Source of the DNA: Desulfosoma sp.
GTDB taxonomy: Bacteria > Desulfobacterota > Syntrophobacteria > Syntrophobacterales > DSM-9756
Reading direction: 5' to 3'
Assembly: GCA_037481875.1 (NCBI GenBank)
Contig: JBBFKY010000001.1
Span: 124,001-188,000, forward strand
Length of the DNA: 64,000 nt
Shown here: positions 5,978-33,433 of the stretch, piece by piece
Position numbering within the stretch: the first letter of the stretch is position 1
Layout of the letters: each line of letters begins with the position of its first letter
The notes under the pieces: generated by a model
Seen by the model: only the letters and a program-made list of their open reading frames with translations
Told to the model about the DNA's origin: nothing
Databases searched by the model: none
Made by a program: the position numbers and the translations under genes

Positions 5978-5983
5978 AAAAGG

Positions 5984-6938: not shown

Positions 6939-7499
6939 TCAGCCGGTCAAGGCCGCTTGGGCTCCGGCTTCCAGGGCCTTGAGGCTTAATTCCACCCGTT
7001 TCCCCTCCAATTGATTAAGAACGGCTTTCACATCGTCTAGGGTACAAAAAAGATTCCCGCTGGCTACCGCATAGCCTAAAAGGACCATATTGGCGGCGAC
7101 TGCATGGCCTATGTTTTTGGCCAGACGAACAGCATCGATTTCCCCGGGAGCTTTGGGGTCGAACCGATGGCAAAAGAGAATGCCTCCCGGTCGAAGGAGG
7201 TACCCATGAGCGGCTACGCCTTCTTCATGGAGGGCTAAGAGGATATCGGCACAACCCGGTCGAATGAGGGGACTTGTCAGAGGCGAGGAAGCCAAAAAGT
7301 CTGTGGAGGAAGAGGCCGGAGAAGGTTTTCGGGAAAAGACTTTGAGGTGGCTGATGACGTTGCCTCCCCTTTGGGCCATGCCATGAGTTTCGGACACCAA
7401 AACAGAGAAATGCTTGAGCAGGGCCGCTTCCGCCAAGATTTTGGTAACGAAAAGCACCCCTTGCCCTCCTAGACCGCTTACGGCGATTTGCTGCTGCAT
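6939..7499 (-). CDS. iorB: Indolepyruvate:ferredoxin oxidoreductase, beta subunit
   Basis: A 186-aa subunit of the POR gamma-type fold. The N-terminus IAVSGLGGQGVLFVTKILAE and SETHGMAQRGGNVISHLK are hallmark IorB segments. With IorA it oxidatively decarboxylates aryl pyruvates (from tryptophan, phenylalanine and tyrosine) to aryl-acetyl-CoA and reduces ferredoxin. The gene lies 21 bases after iorA, and an AAAGGA ribosome-binding site precedes the ATG. A serine-rich patch (SPASSSTDF) around residue 60 is an unusual local expansion. Substrate range is inferred from the family. Confidence 0.95.
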   Translation of the reverse strand: MQQQIAVSGLGGQGVLFVTKILAEAALLKHFSVLVSETHGMAQRGGNVISHLKVFSRKPSPASSSTDFLASSPLTSPLIRPGCADILLALHEEGVAAHGYLLRPGGILFCHRFDPKAPGEIDAVRLAKNIGHAVAANMVLLGYAVASGNLFCTLDDVKAVLNQLEGKRVELSLKALEAGAQAALTG

Positions 7500-7520
7500 G
7501 GGATTTGTCCTTTCAAACCT

Positions 7521-9392
7521 TTAGAAAGCTTCGGCAGACGCCCAAACGATGGCTTCATGGGGGCAAACATGGACACAGACGCCGCATCCGGCGCACACAT
7601 TTTCATCAATGGAAACGGATTCCTTTTCTCCATGAAAGATTAAGGCCGGGCATTCAAAGTACTTGATACAAAAACCGCACCCTTCGCATTTATCCGTGAC
7701 GACAGGGCGATGCCCTAAAGGTTTTCGGCTTTCACGCCGTGCATAGTCCATAAGACATGGACGTCGAGCGATCACCACGGCCATGCCGCCATTTTCGGCA
7801 TCCTCGCAGTGGGTTTTGGCTTCCTTGAGTCGTTCCACAAAGCCGGGAACGTCATAGGGATCGCCCACACTGACATACTTGACGCCACAGGCCGTGGCCA
7901 AGGATTCCAAAGTTACCGGTGGCACCTTTTTCCCCTCCGAGTTCATGCCGGCAGCCGGTGTGGGCTGATGGCCTGTCATGGCGGTGGTGCCATTGTCCAG
8001 AATGACGACCGGAAATCGACAACCTTGGGAGACCGCATTGATTAAAGCGGGAATGCCTGCATGATAGAAGGTGGAATCTCCGATGGTCGCCACCACATGG
8101 CGAGTGTTTTGACCTGCTTCTCGATACGCTTGGTAAAAGCCGGCGGCTTGGCTGATGGAAGCGCCCATACAAAGGACCGTATCCACGGCTCCGAGGTTGA
8201 GCCCCAGAGTGTAACAGCCGATATCGCTGGCATAAATACCTTTGGGAAACACTTTGCGAATAGCGAAAAAGGCGGCGCGGTGGCCGCATCCGGCACAAAG
8301 TGTCGGACGTCGTCCCGAAACCGGTGGCGAACTTGTCTGAGGTGAAGATCGGTTCACAAAGCGGCTCAAAATGTTTTCCACAATTTCCGGAAGCAGTTCC
8401 CCTTCTTCAGGGACATGGCCGCTCAGGCGCCCTCGAACCTTCTCCCTGTCTCTGAGTTGCCTTTCGATCACGGGCTGGGATTCTTCCAGAATCAGAATTT
8501 CCTTAGCAGTTTTAAGGATTTCAAGACAGAAGTCTTCCGAAAGCGGATATGGCATGGGAACCTGAAAAAGGGGGAGCTGGTCCCAAAGATTCCATCCTTT
8601 GAGTATTTCCGCCGCGTGAGCACAAGCGGTGCCGGAAGCCACAATGATTTTGTCAAAGGTGCTTTCGCCTCGAAAGCCTGTGGCGACGTCCAAGGTTGCC
8701 GCGTTTAAAAGCCGAGGCTGCCATCGGAAATCCTGAGAGATTTTTCTTAGCTTTTCGTTGAGTTTTTTGTGCAGAAGATAACGGAACTTGGGGGTTGCGG
8801 CCCATCGTGCGGGATCTTTCTCAAAAACCGGTTGTGGCGCCTCCTTGAAAAAGCTTCGCAGTTCCATATCCTGCCGAGCGTGGCAGACTCGGGTCGTGGG
8901 GCGAAGAATCACGGGGATTTCATAATGTTCGGAAAGCTCGTACGCTGGAGTGATCCAGTCACGCGCTTGAGCTGGAAAAGCTGGATCCAGCACCGGCAAT
9001 TTAGCGAACATGGCAAATTGGCGCGTATCCTGTTCCGTTTGGGAACTGTGAGGCCCAGGGTCGTCTGCGACGATCAGAAGAAAACCTCCTTTCACCCCGG
9101 TGTAGGCGGCGCTCATTACTGGATCGGCGGCCACGTTGAGCCCTACCTGCTTCATGGCGGCGGCGGAACGCCTTCCCGCGTAACTATTGGCCAAAGCCGT
9201 TTCCACAGCCACCTTTTCGTTCACGGACCACTCTGCATGACACGGCACGCCGTGGTTCTTCTTGAGGTGTAAAAGGGTGGTCATGATCTCCGAAGCAGGT
9301 GTTCCGGGATAGGATGTGGCCATGGTGCATCCTGCTTCTAAAAGTCCATGGGCTATGGCTTCATTGCCCAAGAGTATTTTTCTGTCGACCAC
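7521..9392 (-). CDS. iorA: Indolepyruvate:ferredoxin oxidoreductase, alpha subunit
   Basis: A 623-aa protein of normal length. It carries the pyrimidine-binding domain first (ATSYPGTPASEIMTTL), then a TPP-binding domain (CAGCGHRAAFFAI, IGDSTFYHAGIPAL) and a C-terminal ferredoxin domain. That domain has CEGCGFCIKYFECP and CAGCGVCVHVCP, so two 4Fe-4S clusters are expected. The start is GTG at 9392 with AGGAG upstream. It is the first gene of the minus-strand ior-liv-paaK run and makes ferredoxin-reducing power from aryl pyruvates in the cytoplasm. The long repeat-rich spacer upstream probably holds the operon promoter, which I could not pinpoint. Confidence 0.96.
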   Translation of the reverse strand: MVDRKILLGNEAIAHGLLEAGCTMATSYPGTPASEIMTTLLHLKKNHGVPCHAEWSVNEKVAVETALANSYAGRRSAAAMKQVGLNVAADPVMSAAYTGVKGGFLLIVADDPGPHSSQTEQDTRQFAMFAKLPVLDPAFPAQARDWITPAYELSEHYEIPVILRPTTRVCHARQDMELRSFFKEAPQPVFEKDPARWAATPKFRYLLHKKLNEKLRKISQDFRWQPRLLNAATLDVATGFRGESTFDKIIVASGTACAHAAEILKGWNLWDQLPLFQVPMPYPLSEDFCLEILKTAKEILILEESQPVIERQLRDREKVRGRLSGHVPEEGELLPEIVENILSRFVNRSSPQTSSPPVSGRRPTLCAGCGHRAAFFAIRKVFPKGIYASDIGCYTLGLNLGAVDTVLCMGASISQAAGFYQAYREAGQNTRHVVATIGDSTFYHAGIPALINAVSQGCRFPVVILDNGTTAMTGHQPTPAAGMNSEGKKVPPVTLESLATACGVKYVSVGDPYDVPGFVERLKEAKTHCEDAENGGMAVVIARRPCLMDYARRESRKPLGHRPVVTDKCEGCGFCIKYFECPALIFHGEKESVSIDENVCAGCGVCVHVCPHEAIVWASAEAF

Positions 9393-17396: not shown

Positions 17397-20300
17397 ATGC
17401 AGGATGCTTATTTGTCTTTGATGTCGTCTTTTCCACTCACTTTCGGTCTCGAAGAATGTTTGGCTCGCTCTGAAGCCGTCTTATGGCCTATTCGACCGGA
17501 AGGCGACGGCCTGGGTGTGTGTCTAGAAACACCGCAGGGCCGGTATCGAATCCTTTCGGAGGAATGGCTTGCGCCGGGAGTGCGGCTCGGTTTGCTTGGA
17601 GCCCGCTATGCCCGTGATCGGCTTCGCTTAGCGGAGTCCACATCGATGCCGCTGTCTTTATGCCGAACCCATCTTGTCGATGGCCGGTTTTATGTTCTTT
17701 TGGTCCATTCGGCTAAGGAAAAGTCTGAAGCTTTCGGCGCCGCCGTTTTTCTCGAGGACCCTAGAGGTGACTACACCCTTCTGGAAACTCCCCTGGACCA
17801 TGCAACCTTGGGACCCTTTCTATTTGCCTTTGCTCAGTTGATGTGCTCTCGCTCTCAGGATCCTGCACGCTATGATGATTTCGGTGATTTTCTAGTTTTG
17901 GGCAGTCATAACCTGGTGGAACGGCATAGTACGGACAAGCGTGTGCGGTATTTGTCCCGCAAGGTGCGTGTGGATACAACGCAGTGTACGGAATGTCTGC
18001 ATTGTGTGGGCTTGTGTCATGAAATGCGCATTCATGTGACTGGTGCAGGGATCAAACTTTTAGGGCCTGTGGAAGATCATTGCACGCACTGCGGCTTGTG
18101 CCGCCTGCGCTGTTCCTGTCTTGTTTCCGTGCCATACACGGAAGAGCGGGGATCTCGTTTGGGGCGTCGTGCCCTCTTGGAGAAGGGCATCGGAATTCGG
18201 CTTTACGCGGAACACGCCACAGCATGGGATCATTGGCTCACGGCTCTTGAAAAGGATCCCCCCCGTGCTTTTCCCTTCAAGGTGCGGTCTATTTCTTTTG
18301 ATGGCGCGCCAGATGGCTTTGTGTCGCTAGGAGTGCTTCGGCAGAAAGTGCTGGAGCCTGTGCCGCAGGAGGGGGTTCAAAGGCTTGTTCCGGAAAGGGG
18401 ATTGACCGTCACGGTTTTTCCCAACACCCCCCCTGCTTGCCTCATTCGGCCACGTTATGTAGCCGGCCTTTTGTGTGCCAGTAAAGACGGCCGCCTAGAA
18501 CAAGACCTCATGACGGCGGCTCTTCATGCAGGGCTTCAAGTTAGAGCCACGGGGCTTTTTGAGGTCCCTTCCCAGGATTTTAACTTGCCTCATTTTAGAG
18601 CTTCTTCGGTTCTTCAGGTCCAAGTGCCGGCCAATGATATGACCCGCTTTTTGAAAAAACAGGGGTTGTGGGACGGTCGATCCATCGCCCGCCTGTGGCG
18701 GGATAGAGAGATTGATCTCATTCTTGCTCCCCGAGAAGAAGACGTGCCCCCACGGGTGCATGCGGAAGCTCTGCGGGAAGTGGCAAGAGAAGGGCTCATT
18801 CTAAGCCCTCACCTTCCCCAAAAACACCCGGTCACCAAAAGCCCTTTGCTAAATGACTTAACGAGAAGATTGCAGGACGTCTTTTCCCGACATCCTGAGC
18901 TCTTGCAGGCGGAAGCTGCCGTTGCCCGCAAGCTTCTGGACGATCTTCCTCGGTCCTCCGCACAGCTTCACGCTCGATACGGCCCTATGGCTTTTGCCGG
19001 CGGACATTCCGCATGTCCTTCCTGTGCCGAAGCACAGGTTTTATCGGTTCCTGTTGCCATGGCCATGGCCATGAGTTTGGCTCGTGGCGAGGCCCCTCAT
19101 GTGACTTTTACCTGTGAAACGGGTTGCATGAGCGAAACCCTAAATAAGATGAACGAAACGGCTCAGAAAGTCCCGGGGGGACGAACCGTGTTCGGCGGAG
19201 GCTTTGCCTTCGGTGAAGCCATGGCTCAGGTTTTCGATCGTGCCGTGCGCATGGGACTGCTCAAAAAAGGGCGCCGTTATGTGGTGAGCCAAGGAGGTGA
19301 CGGAGGCGCCGTGATCGGGCTTCCCGCGTGGCTCAATGCCTTACGTCAGCAGGCTTTTCTCATTCGACAGCGTTGGGCCAATGCTTTGCATTTTATCACC
19401 ATTACCGACACGCAGGTTTATTCCAACACGGGGGGTGAAAGTTCAGCAAGTTCTCTGCTCGGCATGGGAACCCTCACCACACCCATCGGGAAATTCCTCA
19501 TGGGCAACCAGAAAATCCAGTGGACTCTCATCAATCTCGCGGCGGAATTTCCGGGCATCTTGGTGGGGATGGGGCACAGCGGGAATCGAGCGTCCAACCA
19601 AGAGTTTTGGCTCTTGGCTGACCGCCTGGGGCAGTCGGCCATCCGTTGGGATGTGACACCATGTCCGGAAACCGGCAAATTTTTCGGGCAGGATCCCGAT
19701 GATTATGCCCGAATCATGGCCCATGCAGGCATGCTGCCCGAAGTGGTGTTTTACGGAAGATATCGAAAACGGGTCGCTCCTTTTCATCCCGAAGATCGAG
19801 GAAAACCCTACGAAGAATGGCGCCTGGATCCTAAGCCCGTGCTGTATTGGGTCTCCAGGGATCCTCGCTACAAGGCCTTGTTGGTTCGAGATCCCGAAAC
19901 CGGTCGTTGGATGCCCAGGAACGCTTTGGCCCGTTTCCTTATCATGCAGCTGGAAACCTATCGAGATCAGATGAATTGGCAGATTGATATGGAAACTCGG
20001 CTGATTCTGCAGGCGGAGAGGCGTGTTCGTGCCTTTCTGGATGAACTTCGATCCCGCTGGGCTTCATCACGGCATGATGGAAGTGTTTTTCCTTATGCTG
20101 TCCTTTTTGATGAGGAAGGTCGGCTCAAGCCGCATTTTGCTGCTGGCTTGGAACGGGAGATGGTGCTTCGGCTTTTGGGGCAGGAATCAGGGGCTCGCTA
20201 TACAGAACTGCGGAACGGCTTTCAGGAGGAGGAAGAAAAGCAATGGCAAGCTGTGCTTCGAGCTTTGGAAAGCTTGGAAGCCTTTGAAGAAGGGTTGGAG

Positions 20301-23300
20301 ACATTTGGGGAGGAAGAACACCTGAGTCGGTTACGTCAGGAAGCTCGGGAGGCTTTGGAACAGCTGCGGAAAGCCTATGGCAGACTTCGAGAGGCGGCCG
20401 TTGCCCTGTGGGAATCGGATCCCATCGGTAAAGAGCTCCTTCGATCGCAAGACAGTGCCACTTCTCCGACTTCTGGCGAAGATAGCCTTACTCAACTTTT
20501 ATTTCAAATTTTGGATCGCATCCTGGAAGAACGGACTCTAGCGGCTTGGAGCGAACTCCAGCAGTATCGTTTATCCCAGCAATTAAAGAGAGAATTTTTG
20601 CTCACTGGAGGGCTCATACGAGCCCAGCATCTTCAGGCTTCCGTTCATGAACGAGAAGCTCTTCGAGAAGTGATTTCCCGATTTGGACCGTTTACCATCG
20701 CCGTAGCCAGCCTGGCCGGGGACCGAGGCATTGCGATAAACCGTGTGTTCGCCCAGTTCCTTACAGCCAAAGGCTGCTGGGCGGGCATGGCCTGGCAGTT
20801 TGGTTCGTCCAAAAGAGGAACACCTGTCCTTTCGGCGACCTTTGTCAACAGCCGTCCTCTGGAAAGAAAAGACGCCATGTTTTCTTTCGAGGCTCTTGTG
20901 GTAGCGGTGACCAATTTTGAGGAAATGAAAAGAGATCCTGAGATGCTTTTTGGATCTTTGCGCCTTGGAGGGACGGTGATCGTCAACCATTGGGAGGCTC
21001 CAGAAAAGCTCTGGCAGGACGTGGTTCGATTTTGTCCGGAAAGCCTTCAACCTGTGATTTCCACCCTGCGGCAACAAGCTTTCCAAGAAGGCGGATGGAC
21101 CTATGAGCGGTTGGAATCGGAACTGGACCGCGTTTTGGGTTCCATGGGGATTACGGCTACCTCGAAAGAGGGGAAAAGGTTGCGAGCTTTGTGCCGCGCC
21201 CTGATTTCATGCCGCATGGTGACTCTGGACATGGACGGAATCATGGAGCGTCTGTCCGGACAGACGGGCATGGTGTCCAACTTGGTGGCGGTGTCCGCCA
21301 TTTTTGATTCTCTGGTTCATGCCGGCCTTCCATTCAACTGGGACCAGGATAAGTCTCTGCTTATTCAAGGATTCCCCGATGCTGTTCTTAAGAACCCGAA
21401 ACTCCTCGACCTTTACAGCAAGGCCATGGACAAAGCTCGAAGTGAACGACACGAATGGTCATCCCCCATTCTCATGAACGGTGCCGGCAAACGCGATATT
21501 TCCTTTGAAGACATGGCTTCGCTCGAAACTTTTTCTGCAGGAGATTCCCGTCGTTGTGCTGAAGATCCTGGAGACGCCTTCATGATCATGGGCGGGACTC
21601 TTGCAGGCATGGTTTTATCCCAGATCGCGCTGCCTGAACATCCCCTTTTCTATGTAGGTTTTCCTATTACGCCGGCTGGAAATCCTTTCTATGCCATGGC
21701 GGAAGCCTTTGCCAACGGCCATCCCTATATCGTGGTGGATGAACTCAACCCGTCGGAAAAAGTGGCAGCGGAAAAACTTCTGGGTGTGGCTCGCACCGGC
21801 TTATTCCTTCCCGTCACTTTTACGGCTTCCCAAGGCTGGAGGCTCTTTACGGAAATAATTCCTCAGTTTGTAGGGGCGCGCTTGGAAGGTCTCTTTCTTT
21901 TAACCAAGCGGGCCTTAGCGGCACCTAATCTGAATATCGAAGAAAGTCACACGGATTTCATGAGTTTTCGAGATGATGGCGGCATCATGCTGGCTCCCAA
22001 AAGCATTCAAGAATACGTGCCTTGTTTGTATCTGGCTCGGCTCTTGACCCACTTTGCCAAGTTGCCCGTGATCCTTTCCATCGGCGGCATTACCGACACA
22101 CACAAAATCGGGCTGACCCGGGTGCCGCCCGATACGGTGGTGCGTCGATGGCTTACGGAAACCTTGCAAGACTTTGATTTTCTGGAAGGGCGCATCGTCA
22201 ATAAGGCCGGGCAAAGGGTGGTCCATGGTCCAAGTTGTACGGCGGCCACATATCAGGAAACCCAAAGTGAGGTGGAAAAGGCTCATGAGATGGTGCGCCA
22301 TGTGTGGCCCACAGCAGTGGAGGCCGTACGAAGACTGACCGGTGTCTCCTTGCATCCCTTGGAAGTGCGAACGGCCGGATCAGCCTGGAAAGAAGCTTCG
22401 TTGAAGGACAAGGAGGGACTGGAAACCCTTCTCATCCTTCAAGGGTCTTTATTCCCCAACGCGGTGGAAGCCCTTCAGGAACTGGAAGAGGAAGGCTGGC
22501 GAGGGATGGGATGTGTGTCTGTGCGACTCATGAATCCATTCCCTGAGGAGGATCTTCAAGGCTGGATACAAGGTCTTCGGGCGGTGGCCGTCCTCGATCG
22601 ATCCAACAGTTTCGGTTCCGTTCCTCCGTTGGCTTCTCGAGTTTTCAATGCGTGCGCCCGCATGCATCAAGGATCGAATCATGAAAGCTCCGTCCTTTTG
22701 CGCAGCCTGGTTGGTGGCTTAGGTGGTCGTGAAATCACGGTCCCGGAAATGAAAGACCTCCTGCTTTCGACCCATCTTCTCTTCAGCCCTTTACAACCGT
22801 GGGAACAGGAAGCCTTGCAACGATGGGTCGAGGAAGATGAAACCCTTAAAGATTGGATCCAGGAATTGACCGCGCTGCATGTGCGGGCTTTGGCACGACA
22901 CACTCGAGTTCCCAAGCACCTCGAGGGCCGAAATGATCCTGAAGAAGCCTTTGTTCAAGAGCTGCATCGTCTGATCATCACTCGAAATTATGGGCGGCTT
23001 CTTGCCCATTATCACCAGGTGGAATTTGTAGGACCTCGGGAGCTCTATGGAGAAACAGTCCTTCGGCAGCGTTTGGTCCTGGAGCTGGAAAAGCGCCTGG
23101 CACGAGTGGCTGCGGATTTGGGGCACAAGGACTGGCGACGCGCCCTGGTTTTGCTCTACTACGGTGGATCGGACCCGGACCGCGAAAAAGCACGGCTTCT
23201 CCTTTCTGGATCACCGCCTCCTTTCGTTTCCAACATCCTTCTGAATCGATTCAGGCTGGATATTTCGGAGCCGAAGGAAACGTTTCGAGTGGAAACATCT

Positions 23301-23921
23301 GAAGGGCCGGCGAGGGAAATCCTTTCCGTACGGTCGGAACAGCTCGCAGAAGAAGCCGGGGCACAGCCCGCTATGCCCTGGGCATGTGTTCTGGAAGACG
23401 ATGAGAAAGAAGCGGCTACGTTCTTTTTTGTTCCTTTCGAGCCGGAAGAAAAGGATCGTATCGAAAGAATTGTGAAAAGTCTTGTGGGCCTGTCCATGTC
23501 TAGGCCCCTGTTTCTCAATCCTGAAGATTACGATCGCCTGCTTTTGGAATCTTTAGCTCAGGACGAGGAATCCCAGTGGAGCCGTTTGATGGCCGAAGCT
23601 TCTGCAGAGGCTGTGGGACGGTTGGAATCGGGCTACCTGTGGACCTATCGTGAAAACATCGACCGATGTGTGCAGCGTGAAGTTTTGGTGAAACTCTACG
23701 CTCCGGAAATCGAGGACTTCTTTGAAGGGCCGTCACGGCAAAAACTTCAATCATTTGTCAACGAGCTGGAAGATTCCATGAGTCCTGAAGAAAAAAGGAA
23801 AACCGTTGAAGACCATGTGCGGCGCCACGTCTTGGCCGGCTGCACAAAATCCCAGGAGTTTTACCTGGAATATTTCCGCACATGGGTGTGGCCTGAAATC
23901 AGCGGCCAAAGAGCCATCTGA
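17397..23921 (+). CDS. Giant 2-oxoacid:ferredoxin oxidoreductase with permuted domain order
   Basis: A 2174-aa single-chain enzyme; NifJ-type PFOR is about 1170-1200 aa. Residues about 196-240 hold two 4Fe-4S motifs (CTECLHCVGLC, CTHCGLCRLRC). Residues about 530-720 are the TPP domain, with CPSC as the likely proximal-cluster ligands, GGDGGAVIG, and TDTQVYSNTGGESS. Residues about 1100-1235 are the gamma domain (GDRGIAINRVFAQF, FGSSKRGTPVLSATF). Residues about 1395-1790 are the alpha domains (FPITPAGNPFYAMAEAFANG, DELNPSEKVAAEKLLGVART). About 190 residues before the ferredoxin part and about 380 at the C-terminus are unrecognised. The order ferredoxin-beta-gamma-alpha differs from NifJ. AAGGAG precedes the ATG, and the next gene starts 14 bases after the stop. 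The substrate (pyruvate or another 2-oxoacid) is not readable. Confidence 0.9.
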   Translation: MQDAYLSLMSSFPLTFGLEECLARSEAVLWPIRPEGDGLGVCLETPQGRYRILSEEWLAPGVRLGLLGARYARDRLRLAESTSMPLSLCRTHLVDGRFYVLLVHSAKEKSEAFGAAVFLEDPRGDYTLLETPLDHATLGPFLFAFAQLMCSRSQDPARYDDFGDFLVLGSHNLVERHSTDKRVRYLSRKVRVDTTQCTECLHCVGLCHEMRIHVTGAGIKLLGPVEDHCTHCGLCRLRCSCLVSVPYTEERGSRLGRRALLEKGIGIRLYAEHATAWDHWLTALEKDPPRAFPFKVRSISFDGAPDGFVSLGVLRQKVLEPVPQEGVQRLVPERGLTVTVFPNTPPACLIRPRYVAGLLCASKDGRLEQDLMTAALHAGLQVRATGLFEVPSQDFNLPHFRASSVLQVQVPANDMTRFLKKQGLWDGRSIARLWRDREIDLILAPREEDVPPRVHAEALREVAREGLILSPHLPQKHPVTKSPLLNDLTRRLQDVFSRHPELLQAEAAVARKLLDDLPRSSAQLHARYGPMAFAGGHSACPSCAEAQVLSVPVAMAMAMSLARGEAPHVTFTCETGCMSETLNKMNETAQKVPGGRTVFGGGFAFGEAMAQVFDRAVRMGLLKKGRRYVVSQGGDGGAVIGLPAWLNALRQQAFLIRQRWANALHFITITDTQVYSNTGGESSASSLLGMGTLTTPIGKFLMGNQKIQWTLINLAAEFPGILVGMGHSGNRASNQEFWLLADRLGQSAIRWDVTPCPETGKFFGQDPDDYARIMAHAGMLPEVVFYGRYRKRVAPFHPEDRGKPYEEWRLDPKPVLYWVSRDPRYKALLVRDPETGRWMPRNALARFLIMQLETYRDQMNWQIDMETRLILQAERRVRAFLDELRSRWASSRHDGSVFPYAVLFDEEGRLKPHFAAGLEREMVLRLLGQESGARYTELRNGFQEEEEKQWQAVLRALESLEAFEEGLETFGEEEHLSRLRQEAREALEQLRKAYGRLREAAVALWESDPIGKELLRSQDSATSPTSGEDSLTQLLFQILDRILEERTLAAWSELQQYRLSQQLKREFLLTGGLIRAQHLQASVHEREALREVISRFGPFTIAVASLAGDRGIAINRVFAQFLTAKGCWAGMAWQFGSSKRGTPVLSATFVNSRPLERKDAMFSFEALVVAVTNFEEMKRDPEMLFGSLRLGGTVIVNHWEAPEKLWQDVVRFCPESLQPVISTLRQQAFQEGGWTYERLESELDRVLGSMGITATSKEGKRLRALCRALISCRMVTLDMDGIMERLSGQTGMVSNLVAVSAIFDSLVHAGLPFNWDQDKSLLIQGFPDAVLKNPKLLDLYSKAMDKARSERHEWSSPILMNGAGKRDISFEDMASLETFSAGDSRRCAEDPGDAFMIMGGTLAGMVLSQIALPEHPLFYVGFPITPAGNPFYAMAEAFANGHPYIVVDELNPSEKVAAEKLLGVARTGLFLPVTFTASQGWRLFTEIIPQFVGARLEGLFLLTKRALAAPNLNIEESHTDFMSFRDDGGIMLAPKSIQEYVPCLYLARLLTHFAKLPVILSIGGITDTHKIGLTRVPPDTVVRRWLTETLQDFDFLEGRIVNKAGQRVVHGPSCTAATYQETQSEVEKAHEMVRHVWPTAVEAVRRLTGVSLHPLEVRTAGSAWKEASLKDKEGLETLLILQGSLFPNAVEALQELEEEGWRGMGCVSVRLMNPFPEEDLQGWIQGLRAVAVLDRSNSFGSVPPLASRVFNACARMHQGSNHESSVLLRSLVGGLGGREITVPEMKDLLLSTHLLFSPLQPWEQEALQRWVEEDETLKDWIQELTALHVRALARHTRVPKHLEGRNDPEEAFVQELHRLIITRNYGRLLAHYHQVEFVGPRELYGETVLRQRLVLELEKRLARVAADLGHKDWRRALVLLYYGGSDPDREKARLLLSGSPPPFVSNILLNRFRLDISEPKETFRVETSEGPAREILSVRSEQLAEEAGAQPAMPWACVLEDDEKEAATFFFVPFEPEEKDRIERIVKSLVGLSMSRPLFLNPEDYDRLLLESLAQDEESQWSRLMAEASAEAVGRLESGYLWTYRENIDRCVQREVLVKLYAPEIEDFFEGPSRQKLQSFVNELEDSMSPEEKRKTVEDHVRRHVLAGCTKSQEFYLEYFRTWVWPEISGQRAI

Positions 23922-23935: not shown

Positions 23936-26900
23936 ATGACCATGGGCATCGAAGGAATCATCTTGCAATCTTCTTTGGAACAATTTTACGCAGGTCTGTC
24001 CGCCGATCTGGAAAGCGCTCTTCGCAGAGCGGCGGGAGAAGTTACAGGAACACTTGGGGAATGTTTTCTGTTTCAAGAAACCACTTTCAACGTCCATAGA
24101 AGGGTGGAGCAGGCTCTTGAGGAGCTCCAAAGAATCGATCAGGCATGGAGCACGGAAGCCGAGGATTTGGATCCGGAAAAGGTCTTTCTCGGAGCAGTCC
24201 GCCACGTGTGGTTTGCTTCGAGAGATTCGCGAGAACATGCACGGAAGGTGGGTTTTTTTTCGACACAGCCTTGTGATCTTTTACCATGGGTTCGATGGTT
24301 TCTTCTGGTGGAAAACTATCACCGAACGGATCCATCCTTTCATGATCGAAGGCTGGATCGGTTACGTTATTTAAAGTCCGAAAATCCTGAAGCCCCCTGC
24401 GTCACTCACGAAGATGTGCTTCTCTGGCTTGAACACCAGCTACTGACCCATGAAAACGAACCGCTTTCCTTCATTGCTCAAAAATGCGCCGACCAGTTAC
24501 GTCATCGCCTGGATCCAACGCTGAAACCTGAAATTTCCTTGGAAGCTTTCTGTTACCTGTTGCTTCGTTGTCACCAGTTTTGTTTGGCAGAGACCATGAC
24601 CGAAGAGCACGCGGCGCGACTGCAAGCCGTTTTGGGATGGCGCCGTTTTCTGTCTTTGACGGATCTTATGCTTGTTGTGATTCAGCGGGTGATCGAAAGA
24701 GAGCCTTTGCCCAATGCCGTCTCGGTTTTGGAAGGGTTGATGGCCGATGGTTTTCACATACGGCATGCCAGTTTTAAGGATCCCTACGAAGCGGATGTGG
24801 TGTCTCCTGAAGAAACGGCCCAATTTGATGAAGCGGCCATACGTATCTTGACCCCCATCCATGAACTGCAAGGCCATTTGGAAGAGGATTGCCGATCCGT
24901 TTCTCGCCGCTGGCATCAGCAGCGGGCCAAGGTGCTGGACGAATTGTTGAGCGAAATACGAGAGCTCCAGGACATGATTCTTCAGCCTTTGCCTCGAAAA
25001 CACCTGATTGCGCAAAGCTTACGCCTTTTCACCTCATGGAGCCTGGCGGGATGGAAAAACAGGGAAGACGGTCCAAGGGCTTTGATGGATCGTGTGCGGG
25101 CCATGTTCCCGGAACGCATCCTCAAGGCTCTGGTACGGCAACGTCGTGGATACGAACTGGCCACACGAAAAGAATGGACCCAACTACTGGAAAGAGAATG
25201 TCGATTACAGTGGGAAAGCTATTGGAAAGAACCGGGATCTCGAACTTTTGGAGAAGCCGATTTTCGAGTGTGGACACGTACCCAGGCCCTTGCTTTGGGG
25301 TCGACTCCGCCCGTCGACATCAACACGGATGCAGAAGAAATGCACCGTATTTTGAACACTCTGGCCGACCATGTGGTCCGGTTTAAAGCATCGTTGGAGA
25401 CTGAGACTGTATCGGCTTGCTTGGGAGTTCCGGTCAGTTTCCCCACGGCGGGAACCCCTCTGGAATTTTTAGAACATCTACGAGACATGATGCCGTTGGA
25501 AAAGGTAAGCCTTCAGGCACCGAGGCTTCAACAACTTTCTCCTGAAGAAGCCTCCATACTCCACACGCGAACCTTGGTCCAATTCGCCGAGGCTTTTTAT
25601 CTATGGGTCGTTGCGCAGCGTAAAAAAGTTCAAGGAGAACCTCTGAGCCTTTCTGTGGACCAGATTCCATCCTTGGCCTCGGTCATGGTTCCTCCATGGG
25701 AAAAGCTAGCCCATGATTTGGCACGCAAGGCTGTGCAAAAATTTCAGGACCGGGCTGCACCCATTTATCGACGTCAAAAACATCCCATCTGCGTGGATGA
25801 AGACGAATGTGGAGTGCATCTGGCCCATTTTATGGTTCGAGAATTGAAAACGGATGTCATGGCGGCTGCGGAAACCGGCGACCTGGAACCTGTGCGTCAA
25901 GCTCTTTTGGATGAATCCACGCGGATCATGGCTCCCCGACTGGTTCAATGGCATATGGTTCCAGAAAAATTCCTACTTCAGTGGGCTGGGCTTTTGAATG
26001 GCCGTTCGGGCAGCGATGAGCTTGTGAAAGCCCTGGTGTCGATTCTTCCTGGCATGAACTGTGGAGCGTGCGGAGAAAGTCGCTGTACCGGTTTTGCTCT
26101 GGGGCTGGCCCAAGGCCGACACCATGCCGCCGAATGCGTGCATCTTTCGCCGGTTCACCGCGAAAGGCTCACACAACTTTTGCGAACGGCATCGGCTCAG
26201 GCTTTTTCTGAGAACGGTTTCAGTTCAGCTTACGATCTTTTTAAAAATCCTGCGGCATGGCGGCGCTTGCCTAAAGGGCACCCTTTAAAGCTTCGCATCA
26301 CCAGGGTGCTGGACGTCAAAGAGCAAGATGTGCGCCGAAGGGTCATGGACAAGGCTATGACTCAGTGGCAAAGCCTTGCATCTAAGCCCGATGTGTGTAA
26401 GCGGCCGGATATGGAAGCTTTCTATCAAGGCCTAGTGGCGACCATCGGTTATGAAGCCACGGAAAAGATTCAGCCGGAAGAAAGACAATGGCTGATTCGA
26501 AACGGTGAGATGCGTTTGAATAAGGAGTGGGAACGCCTCAAAAACCGAGCGGACTGGCTCACGATGGAACGACGTTTGGTGGCCGGCGCTCCATCGGCCC
26601 AACGTGAAGATCCCGAAGTTCAAGCGGAACGATTCTATGCAACCGTTCCGTATCTTCATCTGCTCGGGAAGCAAGATCGTCGTCGTCTTTTGGCCTATCG
26701 ACTGGAACGTTTCGAAGAAGGCTTTTTCCAGTGGTGGAATCAGGATCTTCTGGCCATGAACCACCCTCAGTATCGCATCGATAACTGGGAAGAATTTTCG
26801 AAAGTAATCAAAAACGCTTACTGGCATCAGGAAAATTTTCCGGCACCTCGAACCGTGGCCGAAGAGCTTCTTCGAGAGATGGAGCATCGGGGCGACAAGG

Positions 26901-28717
26901 AGGTCTTTTTTCGGGATGTTTTGACTGCATGGATTCAACCGTTAGGAGAAGTTCCAACAGGAAAGCAATCTCGGGGCTTCCTTGAGGATTCAGGGGATTC
27001 GGGGGAGGTTCAGAGCATCTCTCAATTGAAAGCCCACTTGGAAAGACTGTGTCGGGACATGATGGCTCACGAAGAAGAAACGGGCTTCGGAAAAACGAGC
27101 CCGGACATGGATCGGCGTCTGGAGCTAGCGTGGAAAGCTTTTCAGACATCGAACATCTCCTTTGGCGAAAATTTCACAGTTTCGAAGGCTGAAGGCAGGG
27201 AGCCTCAATGGATTCGGGATATGATTCGCGAGTTACTGGAAGAGCAGGAACGGGAGCGGCTCCTGGCCGAGATTGTGGAAAATGCTGTTGCATCGAACCG
27301 GGCTCAATGGCTTCCTGCGGAAAGCCTTCGAGCCTGGATCTCGAACGCTTTGCGCCGTGGAATTCAACCTTCCGAAATTTTGGAAAAAATATTCGGCTGG
27401 TTTCAAAGTTTTCCTCAGTGGAAAGAGACCCTTCTTTTGGATGCGCTTCAGAAGATGGTCAGTTTGGCACGATGGCGGTTCCTTGTGGAAGCCTTTTCAG
27501 GGGTTGTTTTGGAGGGCATACCGAGCACGGAGGTGGATTGGTACGAGAGAAGGTTTCCGCGGTGGATGAAAGAAGTGGAATCGGCCGTACGGCGTCGTGG
27601 TGATTTCGATAGAGAGCGGCTTTTGCACTACCTTTTCGTCCTGGCCAAAAGGGAAGGGGACCTGGATGTCATCACGGCTCTGTTGCGAGAAATCCGTGAA
27701 ACCTCGGATGTTATTGAAGCCGCCTGGCTTCAGTTTACCAATGATCGAGTCACGGAACCCTTACCGGCTCCTTTATCAAAGGGATTTGGGGCTCGTTACA
27801 GTTTGTTGGTGAACCGCATGAAAGATCTGGAACCCATTCGACGATGTCTCCAGGAAGGGGTTCCTCGAGGTGAAAAACCCGATGTGGTGGCCGCCGTGCG
27901 CGAATTGCAGCTCTTTATGCGATTCCACATAGTACGCGATGATGCCGAATCCAAGGGTGCCGATGCATGCTTTGAGGCTTTCTGGGAGGAGGGTTACAAC
28001 CTGGAAGGCTTGAACAAGGATGATCTACGCCTCGCCTTCAACCGTGAATGGCAAAACCGAGCCCGATGGCGTCAAGATCGAATCTGGATCATGACCATGG
28101 CCGTCGCTCGAAGGTTGGCGTCCCAAAGCCATGAACTCTACGAAGCCGACAAAGCCTTTTCCAAAGTTCGCCAGGGGCTGCTTCGGGAGGAAGGGATGGA
28201 AGAGGCTCGAGACGTGATTCAACGCCGCGGCATTGCCCTGGGCACCATCAAGGAGGCCATGTACCGAGAACTTTCGGAATTGTTGGAAAAAGAGCGCATG
28301 GAATCCTTTAGGACTCGAATCCGCCAAATCGTGCACGAGCTGGACCGAAAAAGGCTTCGCATCGTCCAGGCGTGGTACACGGGCACCGTCAATCGATACA
28401 GTGTTTTTCATCTTCTTCGCCAATACCAAAAACAGACCCATTCTCCAAGCGGCGAGGATTTTCGAGACTTTTTCATGGAACAATGGTTCCAGCGCATCGA
28501 ACGTCTGAGAGCCTCGGATCGAGAAGACCGTCGGCATCGCATTCGAGAAGTGGATGAGGGATTTCAAGCCGTTCTCGGTGTCTCTCCTTTGGTTTTGGAA
28601 AAGGAGGCTGAAAGAGAATCGGCCGAGGCTTGGAACACCTGGCTTCGGGGATCCCAGGAGGAAATTTACCGTCGTCTAGGCGGGCTTTCCGAGAACTCGC
28701 AATGTCAAGCTCTCTAG
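23936..28717 (+). CDS. 1593-residue helical protein with one RnfB-like Fe-S motif, function unknown
   Basis: I do not recognise this protein as a whole. It is rich in charged helical sequence, has no clear membrane segment or signal peptide, and is presumably cytoplasmic. Near residue 705 it carries GMNCGACGESRCTGFALG, then AQG and a fourth cysteine (HHAAEC). The CX2CX4CX16C spacing is that of the 4Fe-4S domain seen in RnfB and in corrinoid iron-sulfur proteins. It lies 14 bases after the giant oxidoreductase gene and upstream of the NuoEF fusion, so a structural or electron-relay role between the two is the natural inference. The ATG at 23936 is followed by another in-frame ATG at 23942, and GGGGG precedes both. 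No repeat structure was evident by eye. Confidence 0.85.
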   Translation: MTMGIEGIILQSSLEQFYAGLSADLESALRRAAGEVTGTLGECFLFQETTFNVHRRVEQALEELQRIDQAWSTEAEDLDPEKVFLGAVRHVWFASRDSREHARKVGFFSTQPCDLLPWVRWFLLVENYHRTDPSFHDRRLDRLRYLKSENPEAPCVTHEDVLLWLEHQLLTHENEPLSFIAQKCADQLRHRLDPTLKPEISLEAFCYLLLRCHQFCLAETMTEEHAARLQAVLGWRRFLSLTDLMLVVIQRVIEREPLPNAVSVLEGLMADGFHIRHASFKDPYEADVVSPEETAQFDEAAIRILTPIHELQGHLEEDCRSVSRRWHQQRAKVLDELLSEIRELQDMILQPLPRKHLIAQSLRLFTSWSLAGWKNREDGPRALMDRVRAMFPERILKALVRQRRGYELATRKEWTQLLERECRLQWESYWKEPGSRTFGEADFRVWTRTQALALGSTPPVDINTDAEEMHRILNTLADHVVRFKASLETETVSACLGVPVSFPTAGTPLEFLEHLRDMMPLEKVSLQAPRLQQLSPEEASILHTRTLVQFAEAFYLWVVAQRKKVQGEPLSLSVDQIPSLASVMVPPWEKLAHDLARKAVQKFQDRAAPIYRRQKHPICVDEDECGVHLAHFMVRELKTDVMAAAETGDLEPVRQALLDESTRIMAPRLVQWHMVPEKFLLQWAGLLNGRSGSDELVKALVSILPGMNCGACGESRCTGFALGLAQGRHHAAECVHLSPVHRERLTQLLRTASAQAFSENGFSSAYDLFKNPAAWRRLPKGHPLKLRITRVLDVKEQDVRRRVMDKAMTQWQSLASKPDVCKRPDMEAFYQGLVATIGYEATEKIQPEERQWLIRNGEMRLNKEWERLKNRADWLTMERRLVAGAPSAQREDPEVQAERFYATVPYLHLLGKQDRRRLLAYRLERFEEGFFQWWNQDLLAMNHPQYRIDNWEEFSKVIKNAYWHQENFPAPRTVAEELLREMEHRGDKEVFFRDVLTAWIQPLGEVPTGKQSRGFLEDSGDSGEVQSISQLKAHLERLCRDMMAHEEETGFGKTSPDMDRRLELAWKAFQTSNISFGENFTVSKAEGREPQWIRDMIRELLEEQERERLLAEIVENAVASNRAQWLPAESLRAWISNALRRGIQPSEILEKIFGWFQSFPQWKETLLLDALQKMVSLARWRFLVEAFSGVVLEGIPSTEVDWYERRFPRWMKEVESAVRRRGDFDRERLLHYLFVLAKREGDLDVITALLREIRETSDVIEAAWLQFTNDRVTEPLPAPLSKGFGARYSLLVNRMKDLEPIRRCLQEGVPRGEKPDVVAAVRELQLFMRFHIVRDDAESKGADACFEAFWEEGYNLEGLNKDDLRLAFNREWQNRARWRQDRIWIMTMAVARRLASQSHELYEADKAFSKVRQGLLREEGMEEARDVIQRRGIALGTIKEAMYRELSELLEKERMESFRTRIRQIVHELDRKRLRIVQAWYTGTVNRYSVFHLLRQYQKQTHSPSGEDFRDFFMEQWFQRIERLRASDREDRRHRIREVDEGFQAVLGVSPLVLEKEAERESAEAWNTWLRGSQEEIYRRLGGLSENSQCQAL

Positions 28718-28982: not shown

Positions 28983-31900
28983 ATGAGCGTCTATCAGCCT
29001 TTGCACCCCCGGATGAGCTGTGATCCCTTTTCATGGGTCGAGCGTCTTAAAACCAGTTTGGCCCATGCGGGAAGGATTCGAGATACGCGCCTTCCAAAGG
29101 AACTTTGGCCTCTAGCAACCGTGGTGAGTGTGCTTCGTGCGGGACTCGATGAGTTGCGGTTGCTTCTAGAAGATGTGCCGGAGGTCTTGACGAACTTTGC
29201 CTCACAGCTTCAGGAAAAAGCTTTAGGTCCATGGGGGCCTGATTCTGGAAAGCCTCTTGCTCTCCTGGTTCAGCAAAGCCTCGAACGAAGAGACTGGCGT
29301 GAAAAAGACATCATCGACATGATTCTTGAATTCCTCAGAAATTGCCGCACCGAGCTTCCCGAAGATCTAGCCGCGGCCTTGAAGCATTTTCATGAAGCGA
29401 CCATGGAGAGCAGCGATCGAGCCCAAGCTTTGATGGAGGGAATGATCAGCGAAGCTCGAGGTCGATTGGGAGGTCTTCAATGGGTTCGATCGTTGCCGTC
29501 CGACCAGAAAAGGTCTTGTGCCGGGCCCTTGGGACCTGAATCGCTGGTATGGCTTCAGGAAATCATGGCGGTTATGACGGGGTGCGCTGAAGCCTTTAAG
29601 GCGCGTTCAGCCGAAGCCTTGGAATCCTCGAACGGTTCGGATCTGTGGAAGGAGTTCAATAAAGCCTTGACCGAGGTGTGGGGAAGTTCAGGGCGAAGTT
29701 TTCCTGTCAAGGATTTGGAAAAGGCCTCCCTGTACCTCATGGAAGACATGGAGGCGAGCGATGCCAATCATGGGTTTTTTATCCGGTTCTTGATCGAAAA
29801 CGAGGCCGCTTATCGCCGCCTTCTCAGAACCTGCTATGCCGACGAAACGGTGCAGATGGCGTGTCTCGAGCAGGAATGTGATCGTTTTAACCGACTTCCC
29901 GAACATGCTGCTCATCGCGTCGCCTACACGTCAAAAGAAAAAAAATGGTGGCTGAAAGCGTTCTTTTTTAGACCCGACGTGGTCCAATGTTTTGTGGAAC
30001 GTGAAAAAGTCAAAGAACTCTACCATGTGCTGAAAGGCTTGGATGCCAAAGCCTATCTGCCTCGAGTTCTTCATGAGGTTCAGGGCTTGTTTGGGTATGT
30101 GACTCCAGAGGCGTGCCAAAACATCGTCGAACAGCTCGCCTTGGATCCTGACGATGTTCTTCGTGTCATTGCGTCGTACAAACAGTACAGTGCCGATCCA
30201 TCGGGAGACATCATCATCTACGTTTGCAAAGGCACCGCCTGTTTTCTGAGAGATCAACCTGAGTTATCCCGGCGTTTGACCCTTGAGATCGGGGCGGAAG
30301 TGGAAGCCGTGGGTCGTTATGGCGTCCAATATGTGGAAATGGACTGCTTTGGTGTGTGTCATTTGGCACCCGTGGTGAGAGCGGGTGACCGATTTTACGG
30401 CCGACAGCAGCCTGAAGATATTCCTCGGCTTGTCAGTCGATTAATTCAAGGTCCCGACTACGAAAATCGACAAGTGTTCGTGGCGCGTCTTGTAGAAAAG
30501 CTGATGTCTACAAGGATCAGTGAGCCTGTCGAGACCTTGACAGTCCATGGCGTCGAGGTGTTTCCCAAAGCGCGGCGCGAAGCGACACTGCGGCAATCTT
30601 TCCGGGACGAATCTTTAGCCGGCGGGGCCTTGATTCTTGATGCCGACGGGATGGTCTTCGTGGAAAGACCCGATGGCGATAGGGTCCAGTTGGGTCGTCT
30701 GATTCCTCGCGTTTTTCCCTTCAAGATTCAGCATGTCGATGGATCGGATCGATACGGTGCTGTGATCTATACCAAAAATCGGCGGCTGGTTCGAGGTCTC
30801 GGCCTTCCCGACCTGACGGACGAAACAATTCTGAATGCGGCACTTCCCCCGACGGTTTGCGTAATCGACGGACGAGTGGTTTTATCGTCTTTGGAAAACA
30901 CGCTGTTCTTGGGGCCCTACACAGATCGGGTGTTTGTGGTGGAATCTTCGAGGGAATACCTCTGCGTGGTTTTGAAGGATGAAGGTTCAAATGTGCCTCC
31001 CGTGGTCGAGGAAGCAACCGAAGAGGAAAGCTCTAAGGATTCTGATGAACTTTCGTTTCGATCCGCTCAGGATCGAGTGGTTCTAGGCTTTGCCGCTGCG
31101 GCGGGAGACCCTGCACGCTTGGCCTCTTATCGAGAGGCAGGGGGATATGAGTCCGTGTTTCGTGTCCTGGGTTTTCGAGGAGAACCTGCCTGGAGTGCCG
31201 AGCGGATTATCTTTGAGGTGCGTGAAGCACGACTTCGAGGGCGTGGTGGAGCCGGTTTTCCCACGGGTCGTAAATGGGAAGCCATGCAACGGGCTGTGTG
31301 CCGCATCGAAGCCGAAGACGGCAACCGGGATTGCCTCAAGCTCATTGTGGCCAATGGGGATGAGGGCGATCCAGGGGCCTTCATGGATCGAACGCTCATT
31401 GAGGAAAAACCACATCAGGTTTTGGAAGGAATGATCCTGGCGGCCATTGCCGTAGGAGCCCGCTATGGGGTGATTTATGTGCGCAAGGAATACGAAGATG
31501 CCGTGAGAAGCCTTGAGGACGCTTTGTTTGAAGCTCGAAGGAGCGGGTTTTTAGGGCGCAATATTTTCGGGGTTCCCGGTTTGGATTTTGACATTGAGAT
31601 TCGGCTGGGGGCCGGGGCTTTTGTGGCTGGGGAAAAACGAGCCATCATGAGGGCCATTGAAGGAAAGCCTGCCGAACCCACCATCAAGGCACCGTCCAAC
31701 ACCGTGCGCGGCCTGTGGGGTAAACCCACGTTGCTCAATAACGTGGAAACCTTTGCCAATGTGCCTGTGATCATTCATCGAGGCAGTTCCTGGTATGCCG
31801 GTTTGGGCACATCGAGAAGCGGAGGGACCAAGATCTTTTCCGTCGCCGGTATTGTGAAGAAGACGGGCTTGGTGGAAGTGCGTTTTGGGAAAACCCTTGG

Positions 31901-32657
31901 GGACATCATCGAAATGTGCGGAGGAATTCAGGAGGGAAAAAAGCTTTCCGGTGTGCAAATCGGAGGTCCTTCCGGAGCCATTCTGTCCTTGACGGGAGCT
32001 CGAGCCTATCTGCTGCAGACACCCCTGGACTTTGACACGTTCAATGATGCCGGGGCCATGCTGGGATCTGGGGGATTGGTCTTTATCGGCGAAGATGATG
32101 ATGTGGTGCGTTTGGCCAGGCATTTTACGGACTGGCTTTCCGAGGAGTCCTGTGGCCAGTGCCCATCCTGTTTTCGAGGGACCAGGGCCTTGGGAAGGGT
32201 TTTGGACCGCGTGCTGGCAGGGCAAGGGACCGCAGGCGACATTCACGAACTCTGGGCCTTAAGTGATGTGGTGCGAGCCGGCAGTCAATGTGGTCTTGGG
32301 ACCACAGCGGCCAATCCCGTAACCAGTGCCCTGCGTTTCTTTCCGGCAGCCTTCTTTCACTACCTCCTTCAGAATCCCCAAATGGGACTCCATGAACTTT
32401 TTGAAGCTCTGGAAGCTCTTCGACTGCTCACAAGGCAGGACATGGTGCGGGTAACCGGTGGACTACGCCATGTGGAAGGCACAAATTTTACGCTAAAGCG
32501 ACATTTGGTACGCTTTCTTGTCGAGGAGGTGGAAAAAATCGACCAATACCGTCCGACGTCATGCCGCATGACCGAACGGTTGCTTCGCCTTTTGGGATTA
32601 CCTCGGTACGAAGTGGGCCAAAGGGAAGTGGTCATGGAATGGCGCCATGTGGCCTGA
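28983..32657 (+). CDS. NuoE-NuoF fusion protein with a large unknown N-terminus (NADH module)
   Basis: A 1224-aa protein. Residues 1 to about 350 are unrecognised and helical. Residues about 355-480 are a NuoE/thioredoxin-fold 2Fe-2S domain with all four cysteines (CKGTAC and CFGVC). Residues about 735-1120 are NuoF-like, with RGRGGAGFPTGRKWEAM, NGDEGDPGAFMDR and KPTLLNNVETFANVP, which form the FMN/NAD(H) site. The N3-type cluster ligands CGQCPSC and GSQCGLG follow. One deviation is GAGAFVAGEKRAIM where NuoF proteins usually read GAGAYICGEETAL. GGAGAAG precedes the ATG. There is no complex I membrane gene nearby, so it most likely moves electrons between NAD(P) and the upstream oxidoreductase in the cytoplasm. 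Confidence 0.9.
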   Translation: MSVYQPLHPRMSCDPFSWVERLKTSLAHAGRIRDTRLPKELWPLATVVSVLRAGLDELRLLLEDVPEVLTNFASQLQEKALGPWGPDSGKPLALLVQQSLERRDWREKDIIDMILEFLRNCRTELPEDLAAALKHFHEATMESSDRAQALMEGMISEARGRLGGLQWVRSLPSDQKRSCAGPLGPESLVWLQEIMAVMTGCAEAFKARSAEALESSNGSDLWKEFNKALTEVWGSSGRSFPVKDLEKASLYLMEDMEASDANHGFFIRFLIENEAAYRRLLRTCYADETVQMACLEQECDRFNRLPEHAAHRVAYTSKEKKWWLKAFFFRPDVVQCFVEREKVKELYHVLKGLDAKAYLPRVLHEVQGLFGYVTPEACQNIVEQLALDPDDVLRVIASYKQYSADPSGDIIIYVCKGTACFLRDQPELSRRLTLEIGAEVEAVGRYGVQYVEMDCFGVCHLAPVVRAGDRFYGRQQPEDIPRLVSRLIQGPDYENRQVFVARLVEKLMSTRISEPVETLTVHGVEVFPKARREATLRQSFRDESLAGGALILDADGMVFVERPDGDRVQLGRLIPRVFPFKIQHVDGSDRYGAVIYTKNRRLVRGLGLPDLTDETILNAALPPTVCVIDGRVVLSSLENTLFLGPYTDRVFVVESSREYLCVVLKDEGSNVPPVVEEATEEESSKDSDELSFRSAQDRVVLGFAAAAGDPARLASYREAGGYESVFRVLGFRGEPAWSAERIIFEVREARLRGRGGAGFPTGRKWEAMQRAVCRIEAEDGNRDCLKLIVANGDEGDPGAFMDRTLIEEKPHQVLEGMILAAIAVGARYGVIYVRKEYEDAVRSLEDALFEARRSGFLGRNIFGVPGLDFDIEIRLGAGAFVAGEKRAIMRAIEGKPAEPTIKAPSNTVRGLWGKPTLLNNVETFANVPVIIHRGSSWYAGLGTSRSGGTKIFSVAGIVKKTGLVEVRFGKTLGDIIEMCGGIQEGKKLSGVQIGGPSGAILSLTGARAYLLQTPLDFDTFNDAGAMLGSGGLVFIGEDDDVVRLARHFTDWLSEESCGQCPSCFRGTRALGRVLDRVLAGQGTAGDIHELWALSDVVRAGSQCGLGTTAANPVTSALRFFPAAFFHYLLQNPQMGLHELFEALEALRLLTRQDMVRVTGGLRHVEGTNFTLKRHLVRFLVEEVEKIDQYRPTSCRMTERLLRLLGLPRYEVGQREVVMEWRHVA

Positions 32658-32866
32658 AAAGCCAGGCAACTGCAGCAAATGAGGTGCAAGAAACCTCTTG
32701 CTTTAGCGGGATCCTGCGACCGCCCACGAATTTCAAGAACACGGTGCGGTCAAAAGAGTTCGAGCGTGCCATGTTTGGTCAGAGTTCTTAAAGATGGTGA
32801 AGTAAGTGAGACTAGGAAGGGGGAGGGCAGAAGGCGGTGGTTTTGACCACAACTAGGGAGGTGACG

Positions 32867-33433
32867 ATGACAAAGGAAAGATCGTACTTTGAAGCCTTTC
32901 GAGAAATGGTGCAAGTGGTGAGCGGTTCCCTGGACGTTCACAATGTGCTTCAGGCCATGGTGCAAACCATTCCAAGGGTGCTGGGGGTGAAGGCCTGTGC
33001 CGTTCGCCTTCTGGATCCCAAAGGCAGAACCCTGGAGCTGGCAGCCAGTTTCGGTTTGAGCGACGCCTACATTCATAAAGGGCCGGTGGATGCCGACCAA
33101 AGCCTGGCGGAATCTCTTCAAGGACGAACCGTGGTCATTGATGATGCGGCCACAGACCCTCGGGCCCAATACGGGGAGGCGGCCAAAAGAGAGGGGATTG
33201 TCAGCATCTGCTCAGTGCCGCTCAAAGTCAAGGGTCGTGTCATCGGTGTTCTTCGCCTTTACACGGATGCACCGAAAAGCTTCCAAAAGGATGACCTGGC
33301 CTTCGTGGAGGCTCTCGGAGAATTGGGAGGGATCGCCATTGAGAACGCACGCCTCTATGAACGTCTCAAGAAAGACTACGAAGAAGTGATGAGCGACGTT
33401 TTTCGTTTTGTCGGCTATCGTCGCAGTCTGTAA
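32867..33433 (+). CDS. GAF domain protein
   Basis: A 189-aa single-domain sensor. The GAF core runs from about residue 20 to 170 (LGVKACAVRLLDPKGRTLEL, SICSVPLKVKGRVIGVLRLY, LGGIAIENARLYERL). There is no output domain, so it may bind a small ligand and act on a partner. I chose the ATG at 32867, which follows GGGAGGTG; an upstream GTG at 32837 is possible. It precedes an HD-GYP gene by about 220 bases, which hints at a signalling link, but that gene has its own likely promoter. The ligand is unknown. Confidence 0.85.
   Translation: MTKERSYFEAFREMVQVVSGSLDVHNVLQAMVQTIPRVLGVKACAVRLLDPKGRTLELAASFGLSDAYIHKGPVDADQSLAESLQGRTVVIDDAATDPRAQYGEAAKREGIVSICSVPLKVKGRVIGVLRLYTDAPKSFQKDDLAFVEALGELGGIAIENARLYERLKKDYEEVMSDVFRFVGYRRSL

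Follow-up and report, generated by a model that had tools for sequence, protein, structure and literature searches.

A giant 2-oxoacid:ferredoxin oxidoreductase with a rearranged domain order, and its conserved partner genes, in Desulfosoma

What is one to make of a single gene that carries the whole core of a 2-oxoacid:ferredoxin oxidoreductase (OFOR), with its domains in an unfamiliar order and long stretches of protein between and around them? The question is raised by a 64,000-nucleotide stretch of Desulfosoma sp. (contig JBBFKY010000001.1, positions 124,001 to 188,000; hereafter the window), in which positions 17397-23921 of the forward strand form one unbroken open reading frame (ORF) of 2174 residues and 245 kDa. 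We named the product OFORX, for giant OFOR. A sequence-only reading of the gene had put the domains in the order ferredoxin-beta-gamma-alpha, and this order is real: it is borne out by hidden Markov models (HMMs), by the cysteine ligands and by fold comparison. The E. coli NifJ came out of the identical scan as alpha-gamma-ferredoxin-beta, so the different order of OFORX is not an effect of the scanning, and the HMM boundaries of OFORX did not recover the NifJ order. As to what the protein does, we consider it somewhat better than an even chance that OFORX descends from pyruvate-type enzymes as a rearranged and enlarged OFOR, working in a three-protein complex with the products of two neighbouring genes, FESX and NUOEF, and passing the electrons of a 2-oxoacid to NAD(P). 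The parts of OFORX are as follows.

17397..23921, forward strand: OFORX, with OFOR domains assigned by HMM, cysteine ligands and fold comparison.
17397..17960, forward strand: N-terminal extension, residues 1-188; without Pfam family, modelled as mixed alpha/beta, ratio of nonsynonymous to synonymous substitution (dN/dS) ~0.1.
17961..18164, forward strand: delta-like ferredoxin domain for two [4Fe-4S] clusters, residues 189-256, with eight invariant Cys.
18165..18968, forward strand: region between ferredoxin and beta, residues 257-524; without Pfam family.
18969..19796, forward strand: beta domain, like domain VI of pyruvate:ferredoxin oxidoreductase (PFOR), residues 525-800; invariant Cys 540, 543, 577 and 756, and the GDG and NTGG motifs for thiamine pyrophosphate (TPP).
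19134..19136, forward strand: Glu580, which aligns with Ile843 in the substrate pocket of D. africanus PFOR and is the same in all 13 giants.
19797..20663, forward strand: region 801-1089, modelled as long helices, without family match.
20664..21476, forward strand: gamma domain, resembling PFOR domain III, residues ~1090-1360, interrupted by an insertion at ~1205-1265.
21564..22781, forward strand: alpha domain, resembling PFOR domains I-II, residues 1390-1795, with invariant FPITP, Glu1454 and Arg1505.
22782..23918, forward strand: C-terminal extension, residues 1796-2174; modelled as helical, without Pfam family, dN/dS ~0.14.

For fold comparison the protein was modelled as two halves, from 14 and 15 sequences, with a mean predicted local distance difference test score (pLDDT) of 64 and 68. 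Model confidence is low in the ferredoxin part, where a Fer4_10 match (189-239) lies under the Pfam cut-off; the assignment rests on eight cysteines (197, 200, 203, 207 and 229, 232, 235, 239), invariant in 13 orthologues, and on profile matches, since a profile of this region finds PorD in relatives and a POR delta subunit in the PDB (E 4e-4). The beta domain has a PorB match at 533-715 (46.8 bits), and its model (residues ~514-780) resembles PFOR and the beta subunit of oxalate oxidoreductase (OOR) at a fold Z of ~12. The gamma domain gives a weak Pfam match at 1112-1289 (E 0.03) and a model (1094-1359) with a fold Z of 17 to PorC 2raa over 178 residues. The alpha domain is covered by POR_N at 1418-1634 (E 5e-25) and PFOR_II at 1676-1784, and its model (~1469-1885) matches PorA 9bt4_A with a fold Z of 17. 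The sequence and fold features of the OFOR superfamily are present: the TPP motifs (GDG 634-636, NTGG 677-680) and the catalytic Glu1454 are invariant, the four cysteines of the proximal [4Fe-4S] cluster in beta are invariant in 13 sequences, and the gamma domain is recognised by its fold. At the same time, OFORX falls far below the NCBIfam cut-offs of the named enzymes. It scores 77.5 bits against the NifJ-type PFOR model TIGR02176 (cut-off 911), from which it also differs in order, and 88 of 550 and 47 of 405 bits against the pyruvate synthase equivalogs PorA_Arch and PorB.

About 1100 residues of OFORX, in four conserved regions (1-188, 257-524, 801-1089 and 1796-2174), belong to no recognised family. 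Searches of Pfam up to E 1 gave no family for the first, second and fourth of these, and the whole-protein scan gave no match for 801-1089; the extra blocks were barely probed by fold, as OFOR and other TPP-enzyme matches filled the fold search lists. They are probably docking scaffolds. The long flanks that the sequence-only reading had pointed out do exist, at 188 and 379 residues, while the two internal blocks and the insertion in gamma had escaped it.

It is worth asking how widely this architecture is kept. OFORX was found in 17 of the 56 genomes searched of the class, the genome of the window included, with many copies complete and others split over contigs where the assembly is fragmented, and also in two genomes of another class (family f12). 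The relative that can be named is an uncultured Desulfosoma metagenome-assembled genome (MAG; Syntrophobacteraceae), the single close relative found in a scan of contigs with exact peptide patterns. The domain order is identical in every full-length copy, and as these come from independent assemblies, a join inside the gene is ruled out. An alignment of 13 full-length sequences has 514 invariant columns and exactly 12 invariant cysteines, eight in the ferredoxin and four in the beta domain, which are the predicted ligands of three [4Fe-4S] clusters. Against an orthologue of the same genus, dN/dS runs from ~0.03 to 0.24 across all regions, the unrecognised flanks included; these are rough values, with dS near saturation, and they indicate purifying selection throughout. 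One lineage departs from this picture: in G162 (family f56), locus L078:8055-9507 holds a broken remnant, with N-terminal/ferredoxin, middle and alpha pieces in several frames around a large internal gap and no partner genes nearby, which suggests that the giant OFOR was lost there.

How could such an order have arisen? Ferredoxin-beta-gamma-alpha is a rotation neither of NifJ (alpha-gamma-ferredoxin-beta) nor of the four-gene por operon of the same genomes (gamma-delta-alpha-beta). A circular permutation of NifJ, doubted from the start, is thus ruled out by the order itself; the earlier description of the order as essentially reversed is loose, as a true reversal would run beta-ferredoxin-gamma-alpha. 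The order can be read as two known pairs: ferredoxin-beta corresponds to domains V-VI of NifJ, and gamma-alpha is found in the archaeal two-subunit OFORs, which have domains III-I-II in one chain (PMC5020499). The best non-giant match of all four core domains lies in the four-subunit POR operons of these genomes. Separate trees of alpha and beta, as the sequence-only reading had proposed, each group the 13 giants together as a single clade (100/100), which falls on the pyruvate-type side and apart from the KOR-like enzymes. Because the best matches lie in POR operons and the two trees agree, a single POR-like source and one assembly event with rearrangement would fit best. Separate origins of alpha and beta find no support, though the giant clade sits on very long stems, of 5.3 and 4.6 changes per site in the two trees. 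The giants join NifJ weakly (88/83 and 86/53), and this sister position may be due to long-branch attraction. Of the proposed independent fusion of separate por genes, the independence from NifJ is supported by the order. Given the long stems and the doubtful join, the source may have been either separate por genes or an already fused enzyme.

The active site bears on what OFORX may oxidize. In D. africanus PFOR, Thr31 and Arg114 serve the carboxylate, and Leu121, Ala219, Ile843, Asn996 and Met1202 belong to the pocket (PMC5020499). By alignment, the OFORX equivalents are Thr1425, Arg1505, Leu1512, Ser1613, Glu580 and Asn677, all invariant in the 13 giants; Met1202 has no placeable equivalent. 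Four of the PFOR residues (Thr31, Arg114, Leu121 and Asn996) are thus kept, serine stands in place of Ala219, and Glu580 replaces the Ile of POR and NifJ beta, with other residues in KOR-like beta subunits. On this evidence the substrate is likely to be a small 2-oxoacid; that it is pyruvate or a close analogue is uncertain because of Glu580. An enzyme specialised for another 2-oxoacid, such as one that offers Glu580 a hydroxyl, amino or cationic group to hold, is possible and otherwise compatible with the complex proposed here. The invariance of the glutamate where POR and NifJ have Ile speaks for it, as does the Sulfolobus enzyme StOFOR1, which has Lys49 at this position and in which mutation there altered specificity (PMC5020499). 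Yet the other compared pocket residues are PFOR-like, with the exception of Ser1613, and no gene neighbour consistently names a substrate; we hold such a specialised enzyme to be less likely than not.

A probable acceptor of the electrons is suggested by the genes directly downstream, which the sequence-only reading had not taken up.

23936..28717, forward strand: FESX, 1593 residues, with one FeS (PF04060) motif and otherwise without family.
26045..26143, forward strand: [4Fe-4S] motif of FESX, Cys 709, 712, 717 and 734, the only invariant Cys in FESX.
28983..32657, forward strand: NUOEF, 1224 residues, with an unrecognised N-terminal 350 residues, a NuoE domain and a NuoF domain.
30051..30443, forward strand: NuoE-like [2Fe-2S] domain of NUOEF, invariant Cys 415, 420, 455 and 459.
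31107..32357, forward strand: NuoF-like domain of NUOEF for flavin mononucleotide (FMN), NAD(P) and [4Fe-4S], invariant Cys 1057, 1060, 1063 and 1103.
31635..31637, forward strand: Lys885 of NUOEF, aligned with Glu183 of E. coli NuoF (GEKRA against GEETA).
32837..33433, forward strand: single GAF-domain protein, found after NUOEF in most carriers.

NUOEF contains a NuoEF/HydBC module, with 2Fe-2S_thioredx, Complex1_51K and NADH_4Fe-4S above the Pfam cut-offs, eight invariant cysteines and the FMN-site signatures of the NuoF part retained. Its N-terminus has no Pfam match above cut-off and a best PDB match of E 0.21, and a profile search of the PDB gave nothing for FESX beyond the FeS motif. 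All aligned NUOEF sequences read GEKRA where E. coli NuoF has GEETA, the third residue being Glu183, the residue that keeps NADPH out of E. coli complex I. Other NuoF homologues encoded in these genomes have GEETAL or GESTAL wherever the motif could be located, and GEKRA occurs in the giant only. The invariant Lys885 hints at the use of NADP. The GAF-domain protein is possibly a regulator; at locus L049 the ORF in its place has 355 residues and two GAF matches.

The order OFORX-FESX-NUOEF is retained wherever the contig is long enough to show it, across four families and two classes, and in several loci the neighbouring genes overlap by a few bases. FESX is present in 16 of the 17 OFORX carriers and in none of the 39 non-carriers (Fisher p 4e-13), where its profile picks up short FeS motifs only; the NUOEF N-terminus is present in 15 of 17 and 0 of 39 (Fisher p 8e-12), both tests ignoring shared ancestry. 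The carriers without one or the other are fragmented assemblies, and one of them (G003) has the NuoF part on another contig. In G041, FESX and NUOEF are fused in one ORF. In the Desulfosoma MAG (same contig as G002), FESX at L039:16331-20794 matches in two frames with a TGA, a frameshift either in the gene or in the assembly.

In the proposed complex of OFORX, FESX and NUOEF, of ~570 kDa per protomer, a small 2-oxoacid would be decarboxylated by the TPP that sits between alpha and beta, and its acyl group passed to CoA. The electrons would move from TPP to the [4Fe-4S] cluster of beta, through the two clusters of the ferredoxin domain and the [4Fe-4S] cluster of FESX to that of NuoF, and on through FMN to NAD+ or, more likely, NADP+. 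We propose a linear wire because the invariant ligands fit such a chain. With the acyl-CoA plus CO2 / 2-oxoacid couples at about -500 mV and NAD(P) at about -320 mV, 2-oxoacid oxidation should be the favoured direction. Several observations weigh against this proposal. The link between OFORX and NUOEF consists of neighbourhood and co-occurrence only, and no fusion of OFORX to FESX or NUOEF was seen; 265 bp separate FESX from NUOEF in the window; the low mean pLDDT of the half-models (64 and 68) does not allow cluster-to-cluster distances to be judged; and Glu580 is unlike the residue of every POR, NifJ and KOR-like enzyme compared.

A more elaborate version would have a megadalton dimeric, NADP-linked 2-oxoacid dehydrogenase, combining the new OFOR order, an unrecognised FeS scaffold protein and a non-pyruvate substrate chosen by the pocket glutamate, as an anaerobic equivalent of the pyruvate dehydrogenase complex made from OFOR and complex I parts; we regard this as doubtful. 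The NuoF part of NUOEF is nearest by sequence to the HydB subunits of bifurcating hydrogenases, and low-potential clusters come from the OFOR side, as would suit a HydABC-like confurcating or bifurcating enzyme in which electrons would be exchanged at the flavin of NuoF between the 2-oxoacid, ferredoxin and NAD(P)H. The bifurcating HydB type, however, has an extra [2Fe-2S] cluster and C-terminal [4Fe-4S] clusters (PMC7483475), and NUOEF has no invariant cysteines for them, keeping only its four NuoE and four NuoF ones; plain transfer is therefore preferred, and bifurcation seems unlikely. It is rather improbable, too, that OFORX is an ordinary ferredoxin-linked OFOR whose neighbours are separate, the NuoEF-like protein serving another enzyme. 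Its complete ferredoxin domain is like that of enzymes donating to soluble ferredoxin, but none of the 56 genomes has a full-length FESX or the NUOEF N-terminus without also having OFORX, and the operon is retained across two classes. Finally, the reading of OFORX as a relative without catalysis or with a structural role only, or as an artefact of assembly, could claim the very long stems of both trees but is already contradicted by the invariance of all cofactor ligands, the purifying selection on all regions and the many independent assemblies.

The proposed NAD(P)-linked complex can be set beside known systems. NifJ-type PFORs (D. africanus, Moorella, E. coli YdbK) share with OFORX a single chain with all four domains, three [4Fe-4S] clusters, a ferredoxin domain directly before beta and an NTGG-type TPP loop; they differ in having the order alpha-gamma-ferredoxin-beta, ~1170-1230 residues and ferredoxin or flavodoxin as acceptor, where OFORX has its own order, 2174 residues and NuoEF-like partner genes. 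PorGDAB, the four-subunit pyruvate synthase of the same genomes, provides the best non-giant match for each core domain, but is encoded by separate genes in the order gamma-delta-alpha-beta, lacks partner giants and has Ile at the Glu580 position. The two-subunit archaeal OFORs (StOFOR, III-I-II fused) likewise have gamma directly before alpha in one chain; unlike OFORX, they lack the ferredoxin domain and have a separate beta subunit, a broad substrate range and, in StOFOR1, Lys at the Glu580 position. NUOEF shares the NuoE [2Fe-2S] and the NuoF FMN and [4Fe-4S] with HydBC/NuoEF input modules, and departs from them in its single chain for E and F, its unrecognised 350-residue N-terminus, GEKRA in place of GEETA and the lack of extra HydB clusters. 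The pyruvate:NADP+ oxidoreductase of Euglena and Cryptosporidium keeps the NifJ order and adds a cytochrome P450 reductase-type domain rather than NuoEF; its direct wiring of an OFOR to NADP+ is the outcome proposed here too.

The genome of the window has ten POR_N matches, so that the giant stands beside many ordinary OFORs. The plasmid matches listed are just to ordinary NifJ or PorA alpha. Within the window itself, the reverse strand at 443-9392 carries an indolepyruvate-type OFOR (alpha/TPP ORF 7521-9392, gamma ORF 6939-7499) that adjoins genes for branched-chain amino acid ABC transport and two genes of the AMP-binding (CoA ligase-like) kind, and the reverse strand at 51548-53026 joins NAD synthase, GAF and ANTAR (RNA-binding antiterminator) domains in one ORF. 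No description of the architecture turned up in full-text searches that covered the domain order of OFORs, their fusions, links to NuoEF and the genera concerned, most subscription papers lying outside the reach of the search.

OFORs set the flow of carbon in anaerobes between acetyl-CoA and pyruvate, and their electrons normally go to ferredoxin. If the complex proposed here is true, an OFOR wired to NAD(P) would alter the energy balance of its sulfate-reducing hosts. For the family, the domain order of OFORX appears, from the sequence comparisons, to be absent from the known enzymes compared here, and OFORX gives a defined case in which the modules of an OFOR have been reshuffled with the set of cofactors unchanged.

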